The translations under genes and the position numbers were made by a program. This document shows positions 1 to 24,785 of a DNA stretch of 27,374 nucleotides, piece by piece. The DNA comes from a virus. Every line of letters starts with the position of its first letter. The stretch's first letter is position 1. The DNA lies in the IMG/VR virus record IMGVR_UViG_3300028837_000843, positions 1 through 27,374 of that record. One strand, written 5' to 3'. The notes below the pieces were generated by a model, which was not told where the DNA came from, made no database searches, and was given only the letters and a program-made list of their open reading frames with translations.

Positions 1-100
1 GATAGCCACACGGATAACCACATATCGAACAATCATGCATAGGCCATTTCGTAATATTCAACTTTACAGCCTGTTTTTTAAAATCATCACCACTTCGCAT
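1..100 (-). CDS. Cysteine-rich small protein, 5' part only
   Basis: The first 33 codons of a gene that runs off the left edge. It starts at ATG (98-100) behind a strong GGAGG seven bases upstream. The visible protein begins MRSGDDFKKQ and reaches a cluster DCSICGYPCGY, a CxxCxxxC-type arrangement that suggests a bound zinc. I recognise the general style of a small phage or cassette protein with this cluster but know no function for it. It is the last gene in the row of small minus-strand genes and is separated from the gene at 186-380 by the palindromic element at 137-174. Confidence 0.6.
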   Translation of the reverse strand, partial: MRSGDDFKKQAVKLNITKWPMHDCSICGYPCGY

Positions 101-136
101 AATATTTCCTCCTATAATCTCAAAAGGTTTAATTTC

Positions 137-174
137 CTGCAACGTCCGATAAATGTTTGACCGTTGTCTTTACC
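137..174. repeat. attC-like palindromic element, copy A
   Basis: It starts 12 bases beyond the stop of the gene at 186-380. On the plus strand it begins CAACGTCCGATAAATG (140-155), matching the shared pattern CAACGTnnGAYAAAYG of copies B and C. Its ends pair as CAAC/GTTG, with GTC/GAC inside and one unpaired base between the two stems. There is no T-run, so it is a poor intrinsic terminator. Confidence 0.45.
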
Positions 175-185
175 AATGGCAAACT

Positions 186-380
186 TTATTTGTTGTAAAA
201 TGATTTTTTGATGTATTTAATAACTCCTAATAAAGAGAATATAGCAAGCACGAAACAAAATAAGGCGCAACAACTGCAAATAATTAAAGCACCAATTGAA
301 ATTGGATTACCATTCTGCACACCGGGAAGATTAACAAGTGCGCACACTATACAAACTAAACCCATTAGAAATTGAAACAT
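186..380 (-). CDS. Small two-helix membrane protein
   Basis: A 64-aa protein with two hydrophobic segments, roughly residues 3-18 and 28-54, separated by a short polar loop (GVQNGNP), and a lysine-rich C-terminus (IKYIKKSFYNK) that should stay in the cytoplasm. The start ATG has AAGGGG six bases upstream. No family is recognised. It stands alone between palindromic elements A and B, like the single gene of an integron cassette. A holin-like role is conceivable from size and topology, but nothing specific supports it. Confidence 0.6.
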   Translation of the reverse strand: MFQFLMGLVCIVCALVNLPGVQNGNPISIGALIICSCCALFCFVLAIFSLLGVIKYIKKSFYNK

Positions 381-432
381 ATTAAACCCCTTTCTTTAAA
401 AATTAAAAAATAGACTTATTAAATATTTCTTA

Positions 433-461
433 CAACGTTTGACAAATGTGAGTCGTTGCGC
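433..461. repeat. attC-like palindromic element, copy B
   Basis: It begins CAACGTTTGACAAATG (433-448) on the plus strand and ends TCGTTGCGC, next to the stop codon of the gene at 461-688. CAACG at the left can pair with CGTTG at the right. It is the shortest of the three copies. Confidence 0.45.
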
Positions 462-688
462 TATACCTGCGAGTAACTCCCGCAAACTGGACAGCGACCT
501 TCGCTGTCAAAAGATTCCAGACATTTATCAACAGCTTCTACTAAAAGCAATGATTCACTTTGTTTGTTGGTGGAAGTCAATTTTTCTTCCACCAGTTTAT
601 GAAAATTAATACAATCGATACTTTCTCTGTGATGAACAGCGTTACAGATATGTACACCTATACATTCATGACATTCGGGAATTTTCAT
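461..688 (-). CDS. Small cysteine-rich protein, likely zinc binding
   Basis: A 75-aa protein with an N-terminal Cys/His cluster (CHECIGVHIC, then HH and C within residues 6-30) and a C-terminal CPVCG knuckle near residue 67. Several Cys pairs suggest one or two structural zinc sites. It is not assignable to a named family. It ends in TAG, which shows that TAG serves as a normal stop in this region. It sits alone between palindromic elements B and C. Confidence 0.55.
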   Translation of the reverse strand: MKIPECHECIGVHICNAVHHRESIDCINFHKLVEEKLTSTNKQSESLLLVEAVDKCLESFDSEGRCPVCGSYSQV

Positions 689-717
689 TTATAATCTCCA
701 GAGAAAAATTTATTTAC

Positions 718-772
718 ACCAACGTATGACAAACGGCAGTTCGTTTTAATGACTGCCTTTGTCTGTTAGATG
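718..772. repeat. attC-like palindromic element, copy C (best formed)
   Basis: On the plus strand it begins CAACGTATGACAAACG (720-735) and ends GTTAGAT (765-771), a perfect match to the attC core GTTRRRY. The arms GACAAA-c-GGCAGT and ACTGCCTTTGTC form a 12-bp stem with one unpaired C, around an 11-nt loop. A nearly palindromic stem with an extrahelical base is characteristic of integron attC sites. There is no T-run. It lies about 20 bases past the stop of the gene at 791-934. Confidence 0.55.
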
Positions 773-790
773 ATGCAAAACACGGTTTCA

Positions 791-934
791 TCATTTTTCT
801 TTTTTCGCCCAATCTTTTAAAATCCTGTTGATTTGAGCACCATATTTACGGTCTTCTTTTTTTGCAATTTTTTTTACTTTTTTATATATCTCAGTATCAA
901 TGCGTATTTTTATTACCTCTGTTTTTTTAGCCAT
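791..934 (-). CDS. Ribbon-helix-helix (CopG/Arc-like) DNA-binding protein
   Basis: A 47-aa protein starting MAKKTEVIKIRIDTEIYKKV. It shows a short beta strand (VIKIRID), a first helix (TEIYKKVKKIAKKED) and a second helix (GAQINRILKDWAKK), the usual ribbon-helix-helix layout that binds operators as a dimer. A longer frame reaches 973, but the internal ATG at 934 has GGA nine bases upstream and starts right before the strand, so it is preferred. It overlaps the end of the upstream gene by 8 bases. It is probably an autoregulator or small transcription factor; the target is unknown. Confidence 0.6.
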   Translation of the reverse strand: MAKKTEVIKIRIDTEIYKKVKKIAKKEDRKYGAQINRILKDWAKKEK

Positions 935-1151
935 TATTATCTGTCCAGCTCGGTTTTTTTCCTGCGAGTCCATCGTTTACACCATCAGCAATTTTACCGC
1001 CTCGCTGTTTCATTTTCTCAATTATTTTATTATCCCCGAAATTCTCTCCGTGATAATGCCGTCTCAGTCCATAATGATAACCCTGATAATATTCAGAGCT
1101 GCTGAGTATTTTGGATTGATTCATATAAAATTCAAATTGTTTGTGTTCCAT
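927..1151 (-). CDS. Unknown small phage protein
   Basis: A 74-aa, Tyr/His-rich hydrophilic protein (YYQGYHYGLRRHYHG near residues 21-35) with no recognised domain. Its start overlaps the TAA of the upstream gene (TAATG), and its end overlaps the ribbon-helix-helix gene, so it is an operon member. The YYxGY pattern recalls GYYRGYNENKNGY in the protein encoded at 1384-1734, so the two may be distant relatives. Confidence 0.5.
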   Translation of the reverse strand: MEHKQFEFYMNQSKILSSSEYYQGYHYGLRRHYHGENFGDNKIIEKMKQRGGKIADGVNDGLAGKKPSWTDNNG

Positions 1152-3189: not shown

Positions 3190-3340
3190 TTATCCAACTT
3201 ACAAAAAGTTAGAAAGGATTCCTTTCAGTTCCTTTAAGTGAATTTCGCGCTTCCCAGAGGCCAGTTTCGTAACTCAGCACAGGCCAAGTCACCAGAGCCG
3301 GTCTCTCCACGCGCTTAGACGGCAAACCCTGCCGCATAAT
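3190..3340 (-). ncRNA. Probable TnpB guide (omega) RNA scaffold
   Basis: TnpB nucleases use a guide RNA whose scaffold overlaps the 3' end of tnpB and the element's right end. Here the last ~45 codons after the RuvC-III motif are tail sequence, followed by a 6-bp hairpin (GAAAGG/CCTTTC, 3212-3226) and a 5-bp hairpin (AACTT/AAGTT, 3196-3210) at the element end. The limits are estimates. The natural guide would be the phage DNA just below 3196. Confidence 0.4.
3197..3212. repeat. IS607 right-end inverted repeat
   Basis: On the plus strand, reading from outside inward: ACTTACAAAAAGTTAG. It matches the left-end copy (ACTTATAAATAGTTAT on the minus strand) at 13 of 16 positions. The core AACTT...AAGTT is itself palindromic. 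It overlaps the tnpB stop codon. Confidence 0.55.
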
Positions 3341-4378
3341 ATTTTGTGCTGCATTCAAATCCCTGTCAATTTCCTCCCCGCATTCGCATTTGAAAACTCG
3401 GTCGCTAAGGTTCATGTCATTGACAACACCACAACCAAAGCACGTCTTCGTACTTGGAAACCATCTGTCAACAACGTGAACTTTTTGACATTTGTATTCA
3501 AGTTGCCTTCGAGCTTCTCGAAACGAAACATCAACAATAGCCTTTGCCAACTTGTGGTTTTTCACCATGCCAGATACGTTCAAATCTTCAAGACAAACAT
3601 CTGTGTAATTGTTAGCGACATGCCTCGAAAACTTGTGAATAGCGTCACCACGGTAATCGCCAATCCTGACATGCAATCGCTGAAGTTTCAGTCTCGCTTT
3701 ACGAAAGCGATTAGAACCTTTAACCTTTCTTGCAAGAGATTTGTTTAGCAACCTCAAACGAGATGAAAAATTACCAGTCACTCTCGGGTTTTCAAAGACA
3801 GTTCCATCCGACAATGTAGCGAATTTCGATACGCCGAAATCAACTCCGACGGCTTTAATGGTTTGGTTTTCACCATTATTGTCGTCGTCACTCATCTCAA
3901 CATTAATCGAAACAAACCACCAATCAGCTTTGCGAGATACAACAGCAGAAATAATCTTACCGTCATATCTCAGCGGTTCTGTCATTTTAACCCAACCGAG
4001 CTTCGGAATTTTCACCTTGTTATTGTCTACCAATAACACAGTTCCCGAAATGTAAAACGAGTCTCGTACACCTTTCTTTTTGAATCTTGGATAGCCTTTC
4101 TTAGTCTTGAAAAACCTCTTGAATGCGCTATCAAGGTTTCTGAAAGCTTGTTCTGGACTCCACTTAGTAACTTCGTATACAAATGGAAACTCGTCACGTT
4201 TGACAGAATTGAACTGTTTCTTCACAGAAAAAGCTGTTGGCTTTTCGCCAGCCTCGTACAGAGCTTTCCATTTAGCAAGGCCCCAGTTAAAAGCGAGACG
4301 AGAGCACCCTGATGCTTTTGCAAAATATGTGGCTTGCACATTATTTGGAGACAATCTGATTTTATGACTTCTTTGCAC
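3209..4378 (-). CDS. tnpB: TnpB, RNA-guided RuvC nuclease of the IS607 element
   Basis: About 389 aa from a GTG start at 4378, chosen because GGAAG lies five bases upstream and it gives the usual short overlap with tnpA; a frame-opening ATG at 4426 lies deep inside tnpA. The N-terminal domain (HKIRLSPNN...) is followed by the split RuvC core. Motif I is VGVDFGVSKFATLSDG (Asp180), motif II is VCLEDLNVSG (Glu264), and motif III is EIDRDLNAAQNI (Asp338). Between II and III is a zinc finger with Cys313, Cys316, Cys331 and Cys333. All catalytic residues are present, so the nuclease should be active. TnpB cuts DNA matching its omega RNA and helps the element persist at its site. Confidence 0.9.
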   Translation of the reverse strand: MQRSHKIRLSPNNVQATYFAKASGCSRLAFNWGLAKWKALYEAGEKPTAFSVKKQFNSVKRDEFPFVYEVTKWSPEQAFRNLDSAFKRFFKTKKGYPRFKKKGVRDSFYISGTVLLVDNNKVKIPKLGWVKMTEPLRYDGKIISAVVSRKADWWFVSINVEMSDDDNNGENQTIKAVGVDFGVSKFATLSDGTVFENPRVTGNFSSRLRLLNKSLARKVKGSNRFRKARLKLQRLHVRIGDYRGDAIHKFSRHVANNYTDVCLEDLNVSGMVKNHKLAKAIVDVSFREARRQLEYKCQKVHVVDRWFPSTKTCFGCGVVNDMNLSDRVFKCECGEEIDRDLNAAQNIMRQGLPSKRVERPALVTWPVLSYETGLWEARNSLKGTERNPF

Positions 4379-4967
4379 GTTTTCTTCCACCCCTTCTGCC
4401 GTAAAGTCTCGCAGAATACGATGCAATTAGAGCAACAATATCCTCAGAGAACTCTTGCTCAAATTCTTTTGATTCCTTCTCTTGAAGAATGTTCACATTT
4501 ACTCCAAGGCTCTCGCAAAAAGATTTGAATGTATCAAATCCATATCTGCTAATTCTATCCTTATATTCAACTGTGACACATGCTACATCATTATCGGGAA
4601 GGCGTTTCAATAATTTTTTGAATTGTTTTCTTTTTTCGTTAAGACCACTTCCAATATCCTTATATAATTCAACTGACATTCCTGTCTGATTTGCGTACTC
4701 AAGAAGTCTTCCAACTTGTCTTTCAAGATTTTCTGTTTGTTTTTGCGTAGAGCACCTTGCATAAACAAGCATCACATTTCTAACAACAGCCCCAGACAAT
4801 CTTTCCACTTCGGAAAGCGGAACACGCCTTTGATTCCCTGTAGTCCTTACAGTTTGAATCTTTCCAGATAAATCCCACGACCTAATTGTCTGAGTTGTTA
4901 TACCCAGCCTTTTTGCTACCTCCGACAATCGAAGTAGCGTAATCGTAGTGTTTTTGAAACTCTTCAA
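4362..4967 (-). CDS. tnpA: TnpA, IS607-type serine recombinase
   Basis: 201 aa from a TTG start at 4967, chosen because AAGGAG lies exactly seven bases upstream; a longer frame to 5033 has no such site. Residues ~12-58 are a MerR-like helix-turn-helix (LRLSEVAKRLGITTQTIRSW). The resolvase domain follows: YARCST with nucleophile Ser73, ENLERQ, DIGSGLNEKR, EYKDRISRYGFDTF, and the family-typical ending SEDIVALIASYSARLYGRRGG. The catalytic set looks complete. It moves the element by serine recombination and overlaps tnpB by 17 bases. Confidence 0.9.
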   Translation of the reverse strand: MKSFKNTTITLLRLSEVAKRLGITTQTIRSWDLSGKIQTVRTTGNQRRVPLSEVERLSGAVVRNVMLVYARCSTQKQTENLERQVGRLLEYANQTGMSVELYKDIGSGLNEKRKQFKKLLKRLPDNDVACVTVEYKDRISRYGFDTFKSFCESLGVNVNILQEKESKEFEQEFSEDIVALIASYSARLYGRRGGRKRAKKS

Positions 4968-5058
4968 TCGACATCTCCTTTTCAAGAGGAGGTTCAATAG
5001 GAAATACGTCGCCGTTTTCCAATTCAAATTCATTTTTACTGATTCTTAATATACGCAT
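4882..5058 (-). CDS. Small leader ORF inside the IS607 element
   Basis: 58 aa starting MRILRISKNEFELENGDVFP, from an ATG with GAGG five bases upstream. It contains PPLEKEMSIEEFQKHYDYA. It overlaps the 5' end of tnpA in another frame, and the tnpA ribosome binding site lies inside it, so translation of the two is probably coupled. The left-end repeat at 5086-5101 lies upstream of it, which makes it part of the element rather than a phage gene. I have a vague impression of similar small proteins beside IS607 transposases, but no function is known to me. Confidence 0.55.
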   Translation of the reverse strand: MRILRISKNEFELENGDVFPIEPPLEKEMSIEEFQKHYDYATSIVGGSKKAGYNNSDN

Positions 5059-7405: not shown

Positions 7406-7713
7406 AATTTGGAATAGGTTTTATTCAGGTGTTCATTTAATTTTGTAAATCTTTTATCAAGCTCTTCTTTTACTATTTCTCTTATTCGATCTTCTGTAAG
7501 TTTCTTTTTGGGAATTTTGAAATTTGTGTATTCTCCATTTTCTGTTATTTCTATTTCTACTTTGTCTCCTATTTTCCAATTTTTATTAGTATCATCTTCA
7601 AATCCACCTATCCATTTATCACCATGTTCTTTAGTCTTTATAGAAAAAGACATAGCATCACCACGTTTTGTTTTAATTTTTTTCTTATAAGTTTTCGTTA
7701 TCGTTACTAACAT
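7402..7713 (-). CDS. OB-fold-like protein, putative single-strand DNA binding
   Basis: 103 aa. The ATG at 7713 has GGGAGG six bases upstream. Residues ~21-68 (MSFSIKTKEHGDKWIGGFED, then WKIGDKVEIEITENGEYTNF and KIP) have the strand order, aromatic positions and GDxVEIEI turn of short OB folds found in phage replication proteins. The C-terminal ~35 residues are a charged helix (EDRIREIVKEELDKRFTKLN). Its place between the nuclease and the NinB-like gene fits a role in recombination or replication. Confidence 0.5.
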   Translation of the reverse strand: MLVTITKTYKKKIKTKRGDAMSFSIKTKEHGDKWIGGFEDDTNKNWKIGDKVEIEITENGEYTNFKIPKKKLTEDRIREIVKEELDKRFTKLNEHLNKTYSKL

Positions 7714-8551
7714 TTACATCCTCCCTTAAAGTTATAAGTGAAGGAAATTCCAACATTCTTGGATGTGCATTTTTATTATAGCGCTCCCAAATTGCAGCTA
7801 CATTCTTATATGCTGAATAATAATCGTCAAGCTCTCTCATATGAAGCAATTTAGTATTAAGTCCTTCTATACCTTTTTTTGTTTTTAAGGCATTTGTATA
7901 TATAAGAAGTCCGCCTTGCATTTCTTTTTCATTAACTTCATGCTTTGCACACATTTTTATGTAAGTTGCTAATTGTAAAAAATGCTCGTTCTGTGTTTGT
8001 TTTGAACTTTTTAAATCTACAACATAATAACCACCTTCCAATGCCAATGGGTCTTTCCCCGCCACATTATAAAAACCTTCTTTTATTTTAAATAGAAAAT
8101 CAATAGTACCGGCTTCATTCTCTTCGATATCATATACATTTTTATCCCATGCAACTATCTCAGGTTTAACTTCATCTAACCATGCTTTGAATTTAGCAAC
8201 TTGCCACATTTCATCTTGATCTTGGAGTACAAAAACTTCTTTTCCCGTCTCAATTTGCATATCATTTATTTCTTCTTGGGTATAAGTAGGTCTATTATAA
8301 GGATTGAAAACTACAGTTCCTTGCTTTGCTAAAACACTTGCTGCATAATGGATTCTTGTACCTTTCTGTCCAGCTTCATTCATTCTTAAATCTGCTTCCC
8401 TATTTCCAACATCACCACGCCACCTTGCTAAAAATGGCTTCGGCATTGATTGTAATTTTGTAGTAACAGAAGGTATGTATATTACTTCGTCATTATCTAA
8501 TTCAACTTTGTACCAATGCTCATCAAACCACTCAATTAATTTGACCTGCAT
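7685..8551 (-). CDS. PD-(D/E)XK nuclease (RecB/Cas4-like phage exonuclease)
   Basis: 288 aa from ATG 8551, preferred because GGAG lies seven bases upstream; the frame extends to 8575 without support. Core motifs: GTRIHYAA with His68, AGTIDFLF with Asp151, YYVVDLKSSK with Asp179 and Lys181, then HFLQLATYIKM with Gln193. This is the alpha-beta core of the PD-(D/E)XK superfamily as seen in RecB nuclease domains. With the OB-fold and NinB-like genes it probably forms the phage recombination/replication set, trimming double-strand ends. No single-strand annealing protein (RecT/Beta) is recognised nearby. Confidence 0.75.
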   Translation of the reverse strand: MQVKLIEWFDEHWYKVELDNDEVIYIPSVTTKLQSMPKPFLARWRGDVGNREADLRMNEAGQKGTRIHYAASVLAKQGTVVFNPYNRPTYTQEEINDMQIETGKEVFVLQDQDEMWQVAKFKAWLDEVKPEIVAWDKNVYDIEENEAGTIDFLFKIKEGFYNVAGKDPLALEGGYYVVDLKSSKQTQNEHFLQLATYIKMCAKHEVNEKEMQGGLLIYTNALKTKKGIEGLNTKLLHMRELDDYYSAYKNVAAIWERYNKNAHPRMLEFPSLITLREDVNVSNDNENL

Positions 8552-8741
8552 TTTCTTTCTCCTTTTCTTCAACAAGATTTAAAATAAATGTATCGCTGTA
8601 TTTTTCTCTAACATATTCCGGTTCAACTTCATCAATATACGTATCAAAAATAGCTTTATTCTCTGGAATGAGAACATCGCTTTCTTCCCACCATGTTACC
8701 CATACGGACTTATCATCAATTTCTATTTTAGTTATTGGCAT
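8532..8741 (-). CDS. Unknown small acidic protein
   Basis: 69 aa, strongly acidic, starting MPITKIEIDDKSVWVTWWEE. Its start overlaps the upstream gene by 14 bases, and its end overlaps the nuclease gene by 20 bases, so all three are translationally coupled. Such small acidic partners next to phage nucleases are common, but no function is recognised. Confidence 0.5.
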   Translation of the reverse strand: MPITKIEIDDKSVWVTWWEESDVLIPENKAIFDTYIDEVEPEYVREKYSDTFILNLVEEKEKENAGQIN

Positions 8742-13229: not shown

Positions 13230-13666
13230 TTGTGAATCCTATATATGTTTGTTAAATTTTTTTTGAAATATTTCAGAGGTATAATACATACACCTCGACT
13301 ATTCATTGAATTTATTATAAGATCATTTCCCATATACACAGCAACATGATTTGTAACATCAGACTTAAGTGCAAATGTCAATATATCTCCAGCCATGAAT
13401 TTATCAGATACTTTTTTTAAATTACATCCCTCTTTTATAATATTGGCAATATGATCGAGAATTACTTCTTGTTTTGTAAAGTTGTGCCAGAATCTGGGGT
13501 GATAAGTATAATTGATTTCTTTTAATAATCCGATCTCTTTAAGACAGGCTGCAATGAATAAAGCGCAATCTGCTCCTTTACCTTTTGTCATTTCAAAATG
13601 AGCGTATGGAGTACCAAGCCAGCTTATCAGAGATTTACAAAAACGATACCATGTCTTTTTATCCAT
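13226..13666 (-). CDS. NlpC/P60 tail-tip peptidoglycan hydrolase
   Basis: 146 aa. GADCALFIAACLKEI carries the nucleophile Cys34, TNHVAVYMGND carries His107, and LIINSM supplies the third polar residue, probably Asn119: the NlpC/P60 triad order. GTA gp14 and lambda K relatives act at the tail tip, opening the cell wall during DNA entry. The start overlaps the DUF2163 stop and the end overlaps the hub gene start, so it is fully embedded in the tip operon. Confidence 0.8.
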   Translation of the reverse strand: MDKKTWYRFCKSLISWLGTPYAHFEMTKGKGADCALFIAACLKEIGLLKEINYTYHPRFWHNFTKQEVILDHIANIIKEGCNLKKVSDKFMAGDILTFALKSDVTNHVAVYMGNDLIINSMNSRGVCIIPLKYFKKNLTNIYRIHK

Positions 13667-14481
13667 TATTGTTTTACTCCCCAGATTATTGGATTAGCAC
13701 TACATGGTACATCAGGCATTCCTGTAAATTTATCAAGATTATTAAATTTATCCCGGCATTCAATAATTGTTTTATTACATCCCGGAGATATAATTATATT
13801 ATCTCCATCTGATAAATGTCTTATCGGAAAGTGTATTGTAATTTCATTATCAATATGCGAGGTAATAAATCGTATTTCTCCTTGTGATTCTGCTCTTCCA
13901 AATCTATAATAATTTTTTGGTTTCGTCCCAAAAAAAGCAGCACTTAACACAGTATTATCAATAGGATCAATCGTAACTGCAATTACGGCTCTCCACATTG
14001 TCCAGTCCAATCCGCATATATCATCATATAAAATATTATTGCATTGAGACTGAACAAATACTCTTGGTATCTTTCTGTTAAGGCCATAAGTAGATGAGAT
14101 GCATTCTGCAAGACAAAATTGTCCCTGTATTGAAAAAGAATTTATAATACCAAAAAAAACGGCGGCTGAATTTGTCAAGTCTGTAAAATAATATTTTTTA
14201 ATTTCAACCTGAACCGGAATAGTAGGAGTCGCCATGATATATTGAGCAAAGAAAGTTGTGATAGGTGCTTGGATATTACATTTCATAATACCACGAGATA
14301 AGTCTCTTGTAAATCCGCTCCTCTTCAAGGCTGGAACAGATATATAATTATCACCGTCTATTACAACATCTTCTGCGTATGAAGTAAATCTATAAGTTTG
14401 TACATTGGTTGTAAATATATAAATTTCAAGATTATCAGATTGTTGAACTTGTCTTTCCTGTAATTTGAATGCCGCATTCAT
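13666..14481 (-). CDS. DUF2163 / BR0599-family tail protein
   Basis: 271 aa. The N-terminal half (YRFTSYAEDVVIDGDNYISV...) is the DUF2163 beta domain. The C-terminal part carries the diagnostic pattern SPGCNKTIIECRDKFNN followed by KFTGMPDVPCSANP, matching the PGC..T...C..KF.N..N..G.P.iP ending of BR0599. These are baseplate-hub components next to the NlpC/P60 enzyme, as in gene transfer agents (gp13). Cys residues in CNNILYDDICG and in the pattern above may form the family's metal or disulphide site. Confidence 0.8.
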   Translation of the reverse strand: MNAAFKLQERQVQQSDNLEIYIFTTNVQTYRFTSYAEDVVIDGDNYISVPALKRSGFTRDLSRGIMKCNIQAPITTFFAQYIMATPTIPVQVEIKKYYFTDLTNSAAVFFGIINSFSIQGQFCLAECISSTYGLNRKIPRVFVQSQCNNILYDDICGLDWTMWRAVIAVTIDPIDNTVLSAAFFGTKPKNYYRFGRAESQGEIRFITSHIDNEITIHFPIRHLSDGDNIIISPGCNKTIIECRDKFNNLDKFTGMPDVPCSANPIIWGVKQ

Positions 14482-23064: not shown

Positions 23065-23393
23065 AAAGCATATCTGCACTTTCTGTCAAGAGCTTTCTTC
23101 ACATCTGGAAGCCACTCATCAATTTCCATTTTATCTATCGATCCATTCGGATAACCATGAGAAGCAAGTCCCAAATCTTTACGGCGTCTGAATTCGTAGG
23201 TGATCTGTTTACAAAGACTTCTTTCGAGATTTACTGAAAAATCTGATACTTCTGTTATATCTTCATTATCAAGATATTCGATAGCTGCCGCAGTAATTGT
23301 TTTAATTAATTCCTCTATGGCTTCATCAAATACATCCGTATCTTCACTTTCAATATACAAAACTTTCTTTAATCTTGCGACTGTAATTGACAT
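23061..23393 (-). CDS. Head-tail connector protein (gp6-like)
   Basis: 110 aa, almost all helical: MSITVARLKKVLYIESEDTD, FDEAIEELIKTITAAAIEYL, LERSLCKQITYEFRRRKDLG and VKKALDRKCRYAL. This is the pattern of the gp6/gp15-type adaptor that docks under the portal. Capsid and portal genes are expected upstream, but instead the glycan-type genes precede it, joined by a TGATG overlap. It marks the start of the neck module. Confidence 0.75.
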   Translation of the reverse strand: MSITVARLKKVLYIESEDTDVFDEAIEELIKTITAAAIEYLDNEDITEVSDFSVNLERSLCKQITYEFRRRKDLGLASHGYPNGSIDKMEIDEWLPDVKKALDRKCRYAL

Positions 23394-24247
23394 CAGATAT
23401 TCTCCTTTATAATTTTCACAAGTTCTCTTGCCCTGTTATCGTATGTATGATTTTTTCTTACATGATTATAGCCTGCTTCTGCTATTCGATTTCTTCGTTT
23501 TGGATTTGCAAGCATTCGTCGTATAATCTTTTTACAATTTTCAAGACTACTATATGTTAAGAGATGTTCACCAAGTATAAATAATTTATTCAATTTGTCA
23601 GTCTCATTTGTAATAAGCAATGTTTTACATCCCAAAGTCTCAAATGTTCTGTAATTAATATCTCTACTATGGTTCTTATTAAAATGAATTTTATAAGAAC
23701 TTATTGCCTTAACCATATCATTACCTATCACAAAAATATCTTTCTTAAAATTGAAAGTTCTTGACAGATCATCAATCCATTTTTTTCTGTTTACATAATT
23801 ACCGCAGAATCCTATATCATATTTCTTAGGTACATTTACTGGACTGATAAGATCAGCCGGATAACAATTTGGAAACCATATTCCATTCTTAAAATGCTTT
23901 ACATAATAAGATGTTGAATTTAATACAATATCTATTTTATGATTTCTCGCCATGTTTTGATGTCTTTCTAAAACTATGTGACTATCAATGCTCCAGAACA
24001 ATTTTAATTTCTTTACATCTGACATATCCGGTAACCATGGATACTTAGAATAATTTTCAAGCAATAAAATTGCATCTGTATAGTCTGACATGACTTTAAA
24101 AGGGATTTGAAAGTTATCATATCCAGTTCCCCAGACGATAGGTTCTATTCCCTTAATACGTTCCAATGCTCTTTTCATACAAAGCGATTCCCGGAACTGC
24201 ACATTTCTGGGATGCTTACCTTTTGATTGTATTATTAATATTCTCAT
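23393..24247 (-). CDS. CgeB-like glycosyltransferase (GT-B fold, GT4-type)
   Basis: 284 aa from ATG 24247 (GGAAG seven bases upstream; a frame extension to 24346 lies inside the previous gene). MRILIIQSKGKHPRNVQFRE begins the first Rossmann half. KYDIGFCGNYVNRKKWIDDL and FVIGNDMVKAISSYKIHFNK begin the second. RDINYRTFETLGCKTLLITN and LLTYSSLENCKKIIRRMLAN are the C-terminal donor-binding region common to CgeB/spore-maturation-like transferases (RxFE...G). It transfers a sugar from a nucleotide donor; target unknown. Confidence 0.75.
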   Translation of the reverse strand: MRILIIQSKGKHPRNVQFRESLCMKRALERIKGIEPIVWGTGYDNFQIPFKVMSDYTDAILLLENYSKYPWLPDMSDVKKLKLFWSIDSHIVLERHQNMARNHKIDIVLNSTSYYVKHFKNGIWFPNCYPADLISPVNVPKKYDIGFCGNYVNRKKWIDDLSRTFNFKKDIFVIGNDMVKAISSYKIHFNKNHSRDINYRTFETLGCKTLLITNETDKLNKLFILGEHLLTYSSLENCKKIIRRMLANPKRRNRIAEAGYNHVRKNHTYDNRARELVKIIKENI

Positions 24248-24248
24248 T

Positions 24249-24785
24249 TTAATTCTTCCATACAGTCGTTTTCCAGCTTCTGGGTGGATCATCCTTGATA
24301 ACAGGAGACGTATAATGTATTGTGTACAGACTGTTGAGCAAGTCAATACCTTCTTTATATCTATCTCTATTGCTATTATCGAGAATTATTATTCCATTTC
24401 TTTTTATATGTCCGGGTATTTGTTTTATACAAAGTACCCTGTTTCTACCGTCAACTACAATACAATCAAACTTACCACCAATCTCATGTATCGCCTGTAT
24501 ATAAGGACAATCTTTGTTTTTTATTAAATCTCTTCTCATATACTTGCAATTCTTTTTTACCCCTTCTTTACAAATAATCTTAAAGAACTTTTTACTATGT
24601 TCGACACTAACGATTTCCTTTACAGTATCCTGCCACCATAAGGTAGAGAAGCCTGAGCCCCATTCAAATACTCTCCAGTATTTCTTATCCATGTCAAGTA
24701 ATAAATCCAGCACTCCCTTGTTAAGCCATGGAAGTGCATATTCATTTTTGTAAACTCTTGTTTCGCTCATTATAATTGATGACAT
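24249..24785 (-). CDS. Class I SAM-dependent methyltransferase
   Basis: 178 aa. RVFEWGSGFSTLWW is the glycine-rich SAM loop (motif I, residues 38-51). EIVSVEHSKKFFKI holds the acidic residue at the end of strand 2. KFDCIVVDGRNRV is the strand-4 motif, and GIIILDNSNRDRY follows. This is the Methyltransf_24/FkbM-like arrangement for small-molecule or sugar methylation. It starts within the stop of the preceding glycosyltransferase and ends just before the next one, so methylation of a glycan is the natural reading. Confidence 0.75.
   Translation of the reverse strand: MSSIIMSETRVYKNEYALPWLNKGVLDLLLDMDKKYWRVFEWGSGFSTLWWQDTVKEIVSVEHSKKFFKIICKEGVKKNCKYMRRDLIKNKDCPYIQAIHEIGGKFDCIVVDGRNRVLCIKQIPGHIKRNGIIILDNSNRDRYKEGIDLLNSLYTIHYTSPVIKDDPPRSWKTTVWKN

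Follow-up and report, generated by a model that had tools for sequence, protein, structure and literature searches.

A probable integron-type cassette array with mirror-polarity folded sites at the left end of a phage genome fragment

The left end of the phage fragment described here is probably an integron-type cassette array that has no integrase and is built on folded sites of mirror polarity; its cassettes would move as circles through a recombinase acting in trans. The window, i.e. the whole stretch of DNA that was analysed, is an IMG/VR record of 27,374 bases without end repeats. Because it lacks such repeats and encodes tail genes (tape measure, tail assembly and an Ig-like major tail protein), it was taken as a tailed-phage fragment. 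The record stops at base 1, so that the array is truncated by the contig end, inside cassette 4.

Results

Folded sites at the left end of the window

The motif CAACGTNNGAYAAAYG occurs on the plus strand at positions 140, 433 and 720 with zero mismatches and spacings of exactly 293 and 287 bp. Even with 2 mismatches allowed, three matches were reached in only 2 of 100 dinucleotide shuffles. The three related elements described in an earlier sequence-only reading of the window, with these spacings and no T-run, are thus real. Since the genes of the region all lie on the minus strand, the elements are read there: each starts YAAC, finishes ACGTTG (the 3′ end reads ...TTTRTCNNACGTTG) and sits after the stop of one small gene and before the ribosome-binding site and ATG of the next. 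In this orientation sites C, B and A are 56, 144 and 64 nt long, all within 640 bp (Table 1).

The 16-mer on which the earlier reading had centred is a single arm of a longer folded site; the folding itself stood, with sites A and C both beating shuffles on their better strand (z of −4.0 and −3.8, respectively). Copies A and B had been called weak. Site B seems so because its arms are some 120 nt apart, the 5′ arm being at 566-585 within the ORF at 461-688; once this arm is included, the L stem is paired at 5 of 6 positions, and the idea that B is a short form without a hairpin was discarded. Site A is matched at E 1e-7 by a covariance model built without the window, and shares 83% identity over 89 nt with a site in a 208-kb phage record. 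Gene stops had been placed 0-20 bases from the elements; instead, the stop of 461-688 falls inside site B, and that of 186-380 lies within site A or at its edge.

Table 1. Sites, cassettes and small genes at the left end of the window (R1, covariance model trained without the window)
Feature	Position	Strand	Description
Site C	717..772	−	R'' CATCTAAC (772-765), L stem, 3'-arm extrahelical base, R' GTTGGTG (723-717)
Site C, model match	716-773	−	R1: 39.7 bits, E 4.2e-9; fold z −3.8
Site B, long form	430..573	−	R'' CCACCAAC (573-566), 5' arm to ~551, coding loop, 3' arm, R' GTTGTAA (436-430)
Site B, support	430..573	−	own-R match 5/6; L stem 5/6; R1 7.6 bits
Site A	137..200	−	R'' TTTTACAAC (200-192), L stem, 3'-arm extrahelical base, R' GTTGCAG (143-137)
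Site A, model match	136-200	−	R1: 34.6 bits, E 1e-7; fold z −4.0 on plus strand
Cassette 2, complete	436..722	−	287 nt, TT of site C to G of site B
Cassette 3, complete	143..435	−	293 nt, TT of site B to G of site A
Cassette 4, start only	1..142	−	ribosome-binding site and ATG at 100-98, frame open to base 1
75-aa ORF, cassette 2	461..688	−	Cys-rich C-terminus; runs through 5' arm and loop of site B; no PHROG match
64-aa ORF, cassette 3	186..380	−	hydrophobic; no PHROG match
60-aa Arc-like (ribbon-helix-helix) ORF before site C	791..973	−	PHROG 582, E 1.6e-6

Two further features of the window lie outside the array. A complete-looking IS607-type element (3209-5033, minus strand) encodes a serine recombinase, TnpA, and an RNA-guided nuclease, TnpB; a TnpB relative is also present in another array-bearing record (L067:7345-8610). 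A glycosyltransferase gene (23393-24346, minus strand; Glyco_trans_1_2, E 2.7e-29) lies past the tail genes.

Cassette ends, stem pairing and junction

A unit that moves as a circle joined at G^TT should carry the two halves of a single R box at its own ends, one just after GTT at the start and the other just before AAC at the end; neighbouring flanks in an array would then derive from different units. Among 49 adjacent site pairs from 16 viral records and one MAG contig, own halves matched at 4.18 of 6 positions, as compared with 2.65 of 6 for side-by-side halves and 2.46 ± 0.18 for random pairing, which reached 4.18 in none of 10,000 trials. Both complete cassettes of the window have a 5′ end complementary to their own R'' flank and not to the neighbouring one: GTTGGTG of cassette 2 pairs with CACCAAC at 7 of 7 positions, and GTTGTAA of cassette 3 with TTACAAC, again at 7 of 7. 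Longer arms were also seen, in cassette 2 of 22 nt (702-723 and 566-587, 86% complementary) and in cassette 3 at 413-425 and 214-226. Such own-end complementarity is the signature that cassettes moved as circles joined at G^TT would be expected to leave. The left boundary of the unit holding the Arc-like ORF was not found, the CGTTR core being absent between 725 and 2126.

As a cross-check, AACs were picked by the own-end rule alone, ignoring the stem. A partner was found for 52 cores, as compared with 7 when flanks were shuffled, and an L stem of at least 5 pairs in 6 was present at 35 of the 52 rule-chosen sites (5/6 in both window cassettes) versus none of the 396 remaining AACs of the same stretches. 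Every pair of the L stem covaries, with A-T, T-A, C-G and G-C variants; the alignment used for covariation was selected for pairing in register, which inflates its paired fraction, and the rule-only test is the unselected one. Model R1, built from 31 sites with none from the window, recovers the held-out sites C (E 4.2e-9) and A; it misses site B because of the long loop, and it found no additional sites elsewhere in the 27,374 bases.

In 8 of 11 comparisons, similarity between the sites of different records ends 3-5 nt past the G of GTT, and on the left it runs 0-37 nt beyond AAC. This break places the cassette junction most likely at ACG^TTR of the gene strand, which is also its position in ordinary cassettes. 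GTTAGAT on the plus strand, proposed earlier, is not supported as the working core: on the minus strand, related sites resemble each other as far as ACGTTR and diverge after it, which puts the junction at its usual place relative to the genes. The broader proposal, that the accessory end of a tailed phage holds single-gene cassettes split by attC-like folded sites, is supported by the own-end match, the L stem and the model. Each unit consists of one gene and one site whose two ends form one R box when circular, and the comparison of related sites (8 of 11) points to exchange at G^TT. No excised circle, and no close relative lacking a cassette, was seen.

Polarity of the extrahelical base

Canonical attC sites have, by definition, their extrahelical bases on the R''-L'' arm, where they set strand choice (Bouvier et al. 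2009, PMC2727003). In the present family the extra base was on the 3′ arm in 34 sites and on the 5′ (canonical) arm in 6, with 3 and 6, respectively, in a reversed-sequence control; the polarity claim rests on this symmetric rescan and its control, the initial scan having favoured right-arm bulges. Sites beside the integron integrase IntI served as further controls. The base was on the 5′ arm in 7 of 7 such sites from Fibrobacterota, and those from IntI-bearing IMG/VR contigs divided into 33 with the base on the left arm, 5 without one and 0 with it on the right; spacers were nearly equal in both sets.

The sites share with attC the inverted repeat R''-L''...L'-R' with AAC and GTT ends, the hairpin fold and the unpaired spacers between R and L boxes, here asymmetric (1-2 and 4-5 nt). 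Of the R' core GTTRRRY, GTTR alone is conserved (GTTGGTG, GTTGTAA and GTTGCAG in the window), and the extrahelical base is not on the R''-L'' arm. Because this last, defining feature of attC fails, we call the sites a mirror variant that works like attC, not attC. One point runs counter to the reading of the array given here: moving the extrahelical bases in the VCR site shifted IntI cutting to R'' (PMC2727003), and by those mutants a mirrored base should do the same, but the comparison of related sites puts the junction at R'.

Distribution in viral records

A pattern scan of IMG/VR gave 20 loci, in at least 12 of which the same element precedes a small gene. Six (L002, L004, L005, L011, L012, L019) proved to be one coding repeat that mimics the motif (CATTTGTCCAACGTTGTAATAAATC) and were discarded as false positives; two more (L013, L014) apparently match by chance. 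A further scan of IMG/VR added 3 records. In 84,980 bacterial and archaeal genomes the strict motif had six matches, of which one was genuine; its contig is phage-like and had been binned with a Chitinivibrionales MAG. The elements lie in arrays, the largest of which, in a 253-kb record, packs about 16 sites into 7 kb.

Five of the 16 viral records encode a portal, tail sheath, baseplate or primase protein, and the window encodes tail proteins; the viral status of the remaining records is that given by IMG/VR. No gene family around the arrays was common to more than 3 of the 16, and a neighbouring gene common to the array-bearing records was sought and none found. A protein search of IMG/VR with three window genes (461-688, 7685-8575, 13666-14481) returned no close relatives of the window, and no related array was seen when the window end and two arrays were compared by blastn with phages or plasmids in GenBank. 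A suspected tRNA beside a site in one record (L073) was unconfirmed on checking.

Many sites greatly exceed the length that the 16-mer would suggest. Long-form sites (110-150 nt), like site B, have their 5′ arm 110-150 nt upstream. An ORF commonly spans the 5′ arm and loop of these sites and ends near the 3′ arm, a little short of the 3′ end of the site (L065, L071, L072, L076, L078, L079, and 461-688 of the window), so that the variable loop is coding; the C-termini of such ORFs often have CxxC pairs. Some cassette leaders in L032, L056 and L065 have a motif like CAGTCGCTCNNAAACGAATTATAGGAG ahead of the start codon, possibly an expression signal borne by the cassette.

Occurrence in Fibrobacterota

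Model R1 had 17 chromosomal matches, spread over 10 of the 168 Fibrobacterota genomes; the 395 Bacteroidota genomes, in which fewer candidates per genome were scored, gave none. The chromosomal sites follow single genes or small gene groups, with about 0.9-3 kb between neighbours. Among the genes at these sites (L235-L248) are those for YhcG (PDC-S02), a Schlafen-type helicase (PDC-S41), an OLD/GajA-like ATPase and an Mrr-type nuclease; metabolic genes are also found there. Their position after defence-like genes suggests that the chromosomal sites belong to dispersed host cassettes. The mirror site class is present in Fibrobacterota chromosomes, and circulates among unrelated phages, whose hosts are most likely Fibrobacterota.

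A protein with a 'Fibrobacter succinogenes major domain' (Fib_succ_major) is encoded in the array-bearing 208-kb IMG/VR record (L068:18722-19999), which fits a Fibrobacterota host for that phage.

Search for a recombinase

An integron integrase, which the sequence-only reading had proposed to look for, was not found over the TIGR02249 cut-off in the 16 viral records, mostly fragments, so that none of these qualifies as a complete integron, which has an intI gene and attI in cis. No tyrosine recombinase was matched in 15 of the 16; the exception, in G007, falls below every curated cut-off, is closest to XerC and is unique to that record, and was set aside. Among serine recombinases and Y1 (HUH) transposases, the sole match in the 16 records was the IS607 TnpA of the window, with no Y1. 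Since most of the records are fragments, a missing recombinase is no proof of absence.

The search was extended to loci with an integrase. In 33 IntI-bearing loci, model R1 had no match at E ≤ 1; a further 77 loci with IntI or IntI-like proteins gave two at chance level (E 0.4 and 0.66), hence none significant in 110. This result, like the mirrored base and the conservation of GTTR without RRY, has no counterpart in the sequence-only reading. A separate IntI-based scan of IMG/VR (L138-L217) returned 494 stretches with integron integrase relatives, several of them beside canonical attC arrays; some of the 494 may be integron contigs misfiled as viral.

Perhaps the most serious alternative is that the array is an ordinary CALIN (a cluster of attC sites without an integrase): canonical attC cassettes taken from a host integron, moved by the host IntI, with the mirrored base a minor quirk of one lineage. 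The shared plan of R box, L box, spacer and loop, the single gene per unit, the GTT junction and the known phage CALINs (PMC9892861) all speak for it. So does an association in Fibrobacterota, where mirror sites are present in 4 of the 13 genomes that have IntI and in 6 of the 155 others (p 0.004), the IntI of those four forming one clade. That clade was followed as a candidate for the enzyme, but the arrays beside it carry another type of site, which makes the clade a lead, not the answer. Also against an ordinary CALIN are the failure of model R1 at the IntI loci and the IntI-linked sites, whose base is on the canonical arm 33 times to 0. We regard this explanation as possible, though short of probable.

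Discussion

Three other explanations were weighed. The elements might be RNA structures between co-transcribed genes (terminators, or processing or stability elements), their covariation arising from folding of the mRNA. Covarying stems placed between genes of the same strand would suit RNA equally well. RNA folding, however, does not predict the match of a unit's own ends or the break at GTT; no Rfam family was matched, and no terminator-like site (GC-rich hairpin with T-run) was found at 1-2400 of the window or with a T-run among the elements. We consider an RNA role very unlikely, and the folded substrate is presumably DNA, not mRNA.

Still lower in our estimation are promoter-stem-loop modules that would offer only short homologies for homologous recombination between phages. 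Such a function would explain near-identical short elements amid unlike neighbours in unrelated phages, but homologous exchange gives no matched R halves at the ends of units, no sigma-70-type excess was seen at the elements, and the stems and loops of neighbours in the same array differ strongly. Scarcely credible is a series of small transposons with inverted ends (GTTGNNNG...CNNNCAAC) and hairpins merely between insertions: own-end complementarity is formally that of terminal inverted repeats, but the DNA between units also forms a conserved, covarying hairpin whose bulge has a fixed place, and no transposase is common to the records.

The sequence of steps envisaged for a mirror-polarity cassette array starts from cassettes that each comprise one small minus-strand gene and one folded site at its 3′ end. 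As a single strand, the site would fold into the R box, an unpaired spacer, a 6-bp L stem, one extrahelical base, an upper stem and a variable loop, and this hairpin would be active while the DNA is single-stranded, when the phage replicates or enters a cell. A trans-acting recombinase, probably supplied by the host, would exchange strands at G^TT and release the cassette as a circle, which would re-enter at another site and bring with it both halves of its own R box. Phages may thereby retain arrays as exchangeable sets of small genes, and the sites may still be recombined today. More tentatively, the arrays could belong to a distinct cassette-exchange system, in which an enzyme outside the known IntI lineages acts on mirror-polarity folded sites and moves small genes among unrelated phages, as well as larger genes, partly for anti-phage defence, in Fibrobacterota chromosomes; we offer this as one possibility.

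Strand choice in integrons is thought to be governed by the arm that bears the extrahelical base. A natural, recurrent class of sites with the base on the other arm makes it possible to test this rule against evolution, not just against designed mutants. The sites also link phages with a phylum whose copies follow single, partly defence-like genes, so that phage and host may share a pool of cassettes. The recombinase that acts on mirror sites is a concrete target for future work, and tools tuned to canonical attC may score mirror-type arrays poorly.

Comparison with known systems

In T4-type phages, promoter-stem-loop modules (PeSL) are repeated stem-loops between small genes that may promote the exchange of modules. 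The likeness to the present elements lies in this placement of repeated stem-loops between small phage genes; the elements of the window differ in showing no promoter excess, and we know of no own-end complementarity or AAC/GTT core in PeSL.

The chromosomal integrons of Fibrobacterota occur in the same phylum as the mirror sites, and four genomes hold both IntI and mirror sites; the IntI-adjacent attC sites there are canonical or of another type, with no match to model R1. Canonical attC sites such as VCR and attC aadA (PMC2727003) share with the mirror sites the R box, unpaired spacer, L stem of about 6 bp, extrahelical base, upper stem, variable loop and GTT junction. The mirror sites differ by their base, which is on the R'-L' arm, by unequal spacers (1-2 and 4-5 nt, as against nearly equal ones in canonical attC) and by an R' in which GTTR only is kept. 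Neither the mirror site class nor its link to Fibrobacterota was found in the literature searched.

Clusters of attC without an integrase (CALINs), defined by two or more neighbouring attC that the standard model recognises, have been reported in phages (Qi et al. 2023, PMC9892861), and phage CALINs as such are therefore already known. They resemble the present arrays in their single-gene cassettes, folded AAC...GTT sites, virulent or uncharacterised phages and lack of an integrase. The phage sites tested in that study were recombined by IntI1 on the bottom strand, and our scan of one of its phages, TJE1, found no mirror-type site. The present sites have the extra base on the opposite arm and do not keep the RRY of R'; the array works like an integron CALIN, but is built on a site class of mirror polarity.
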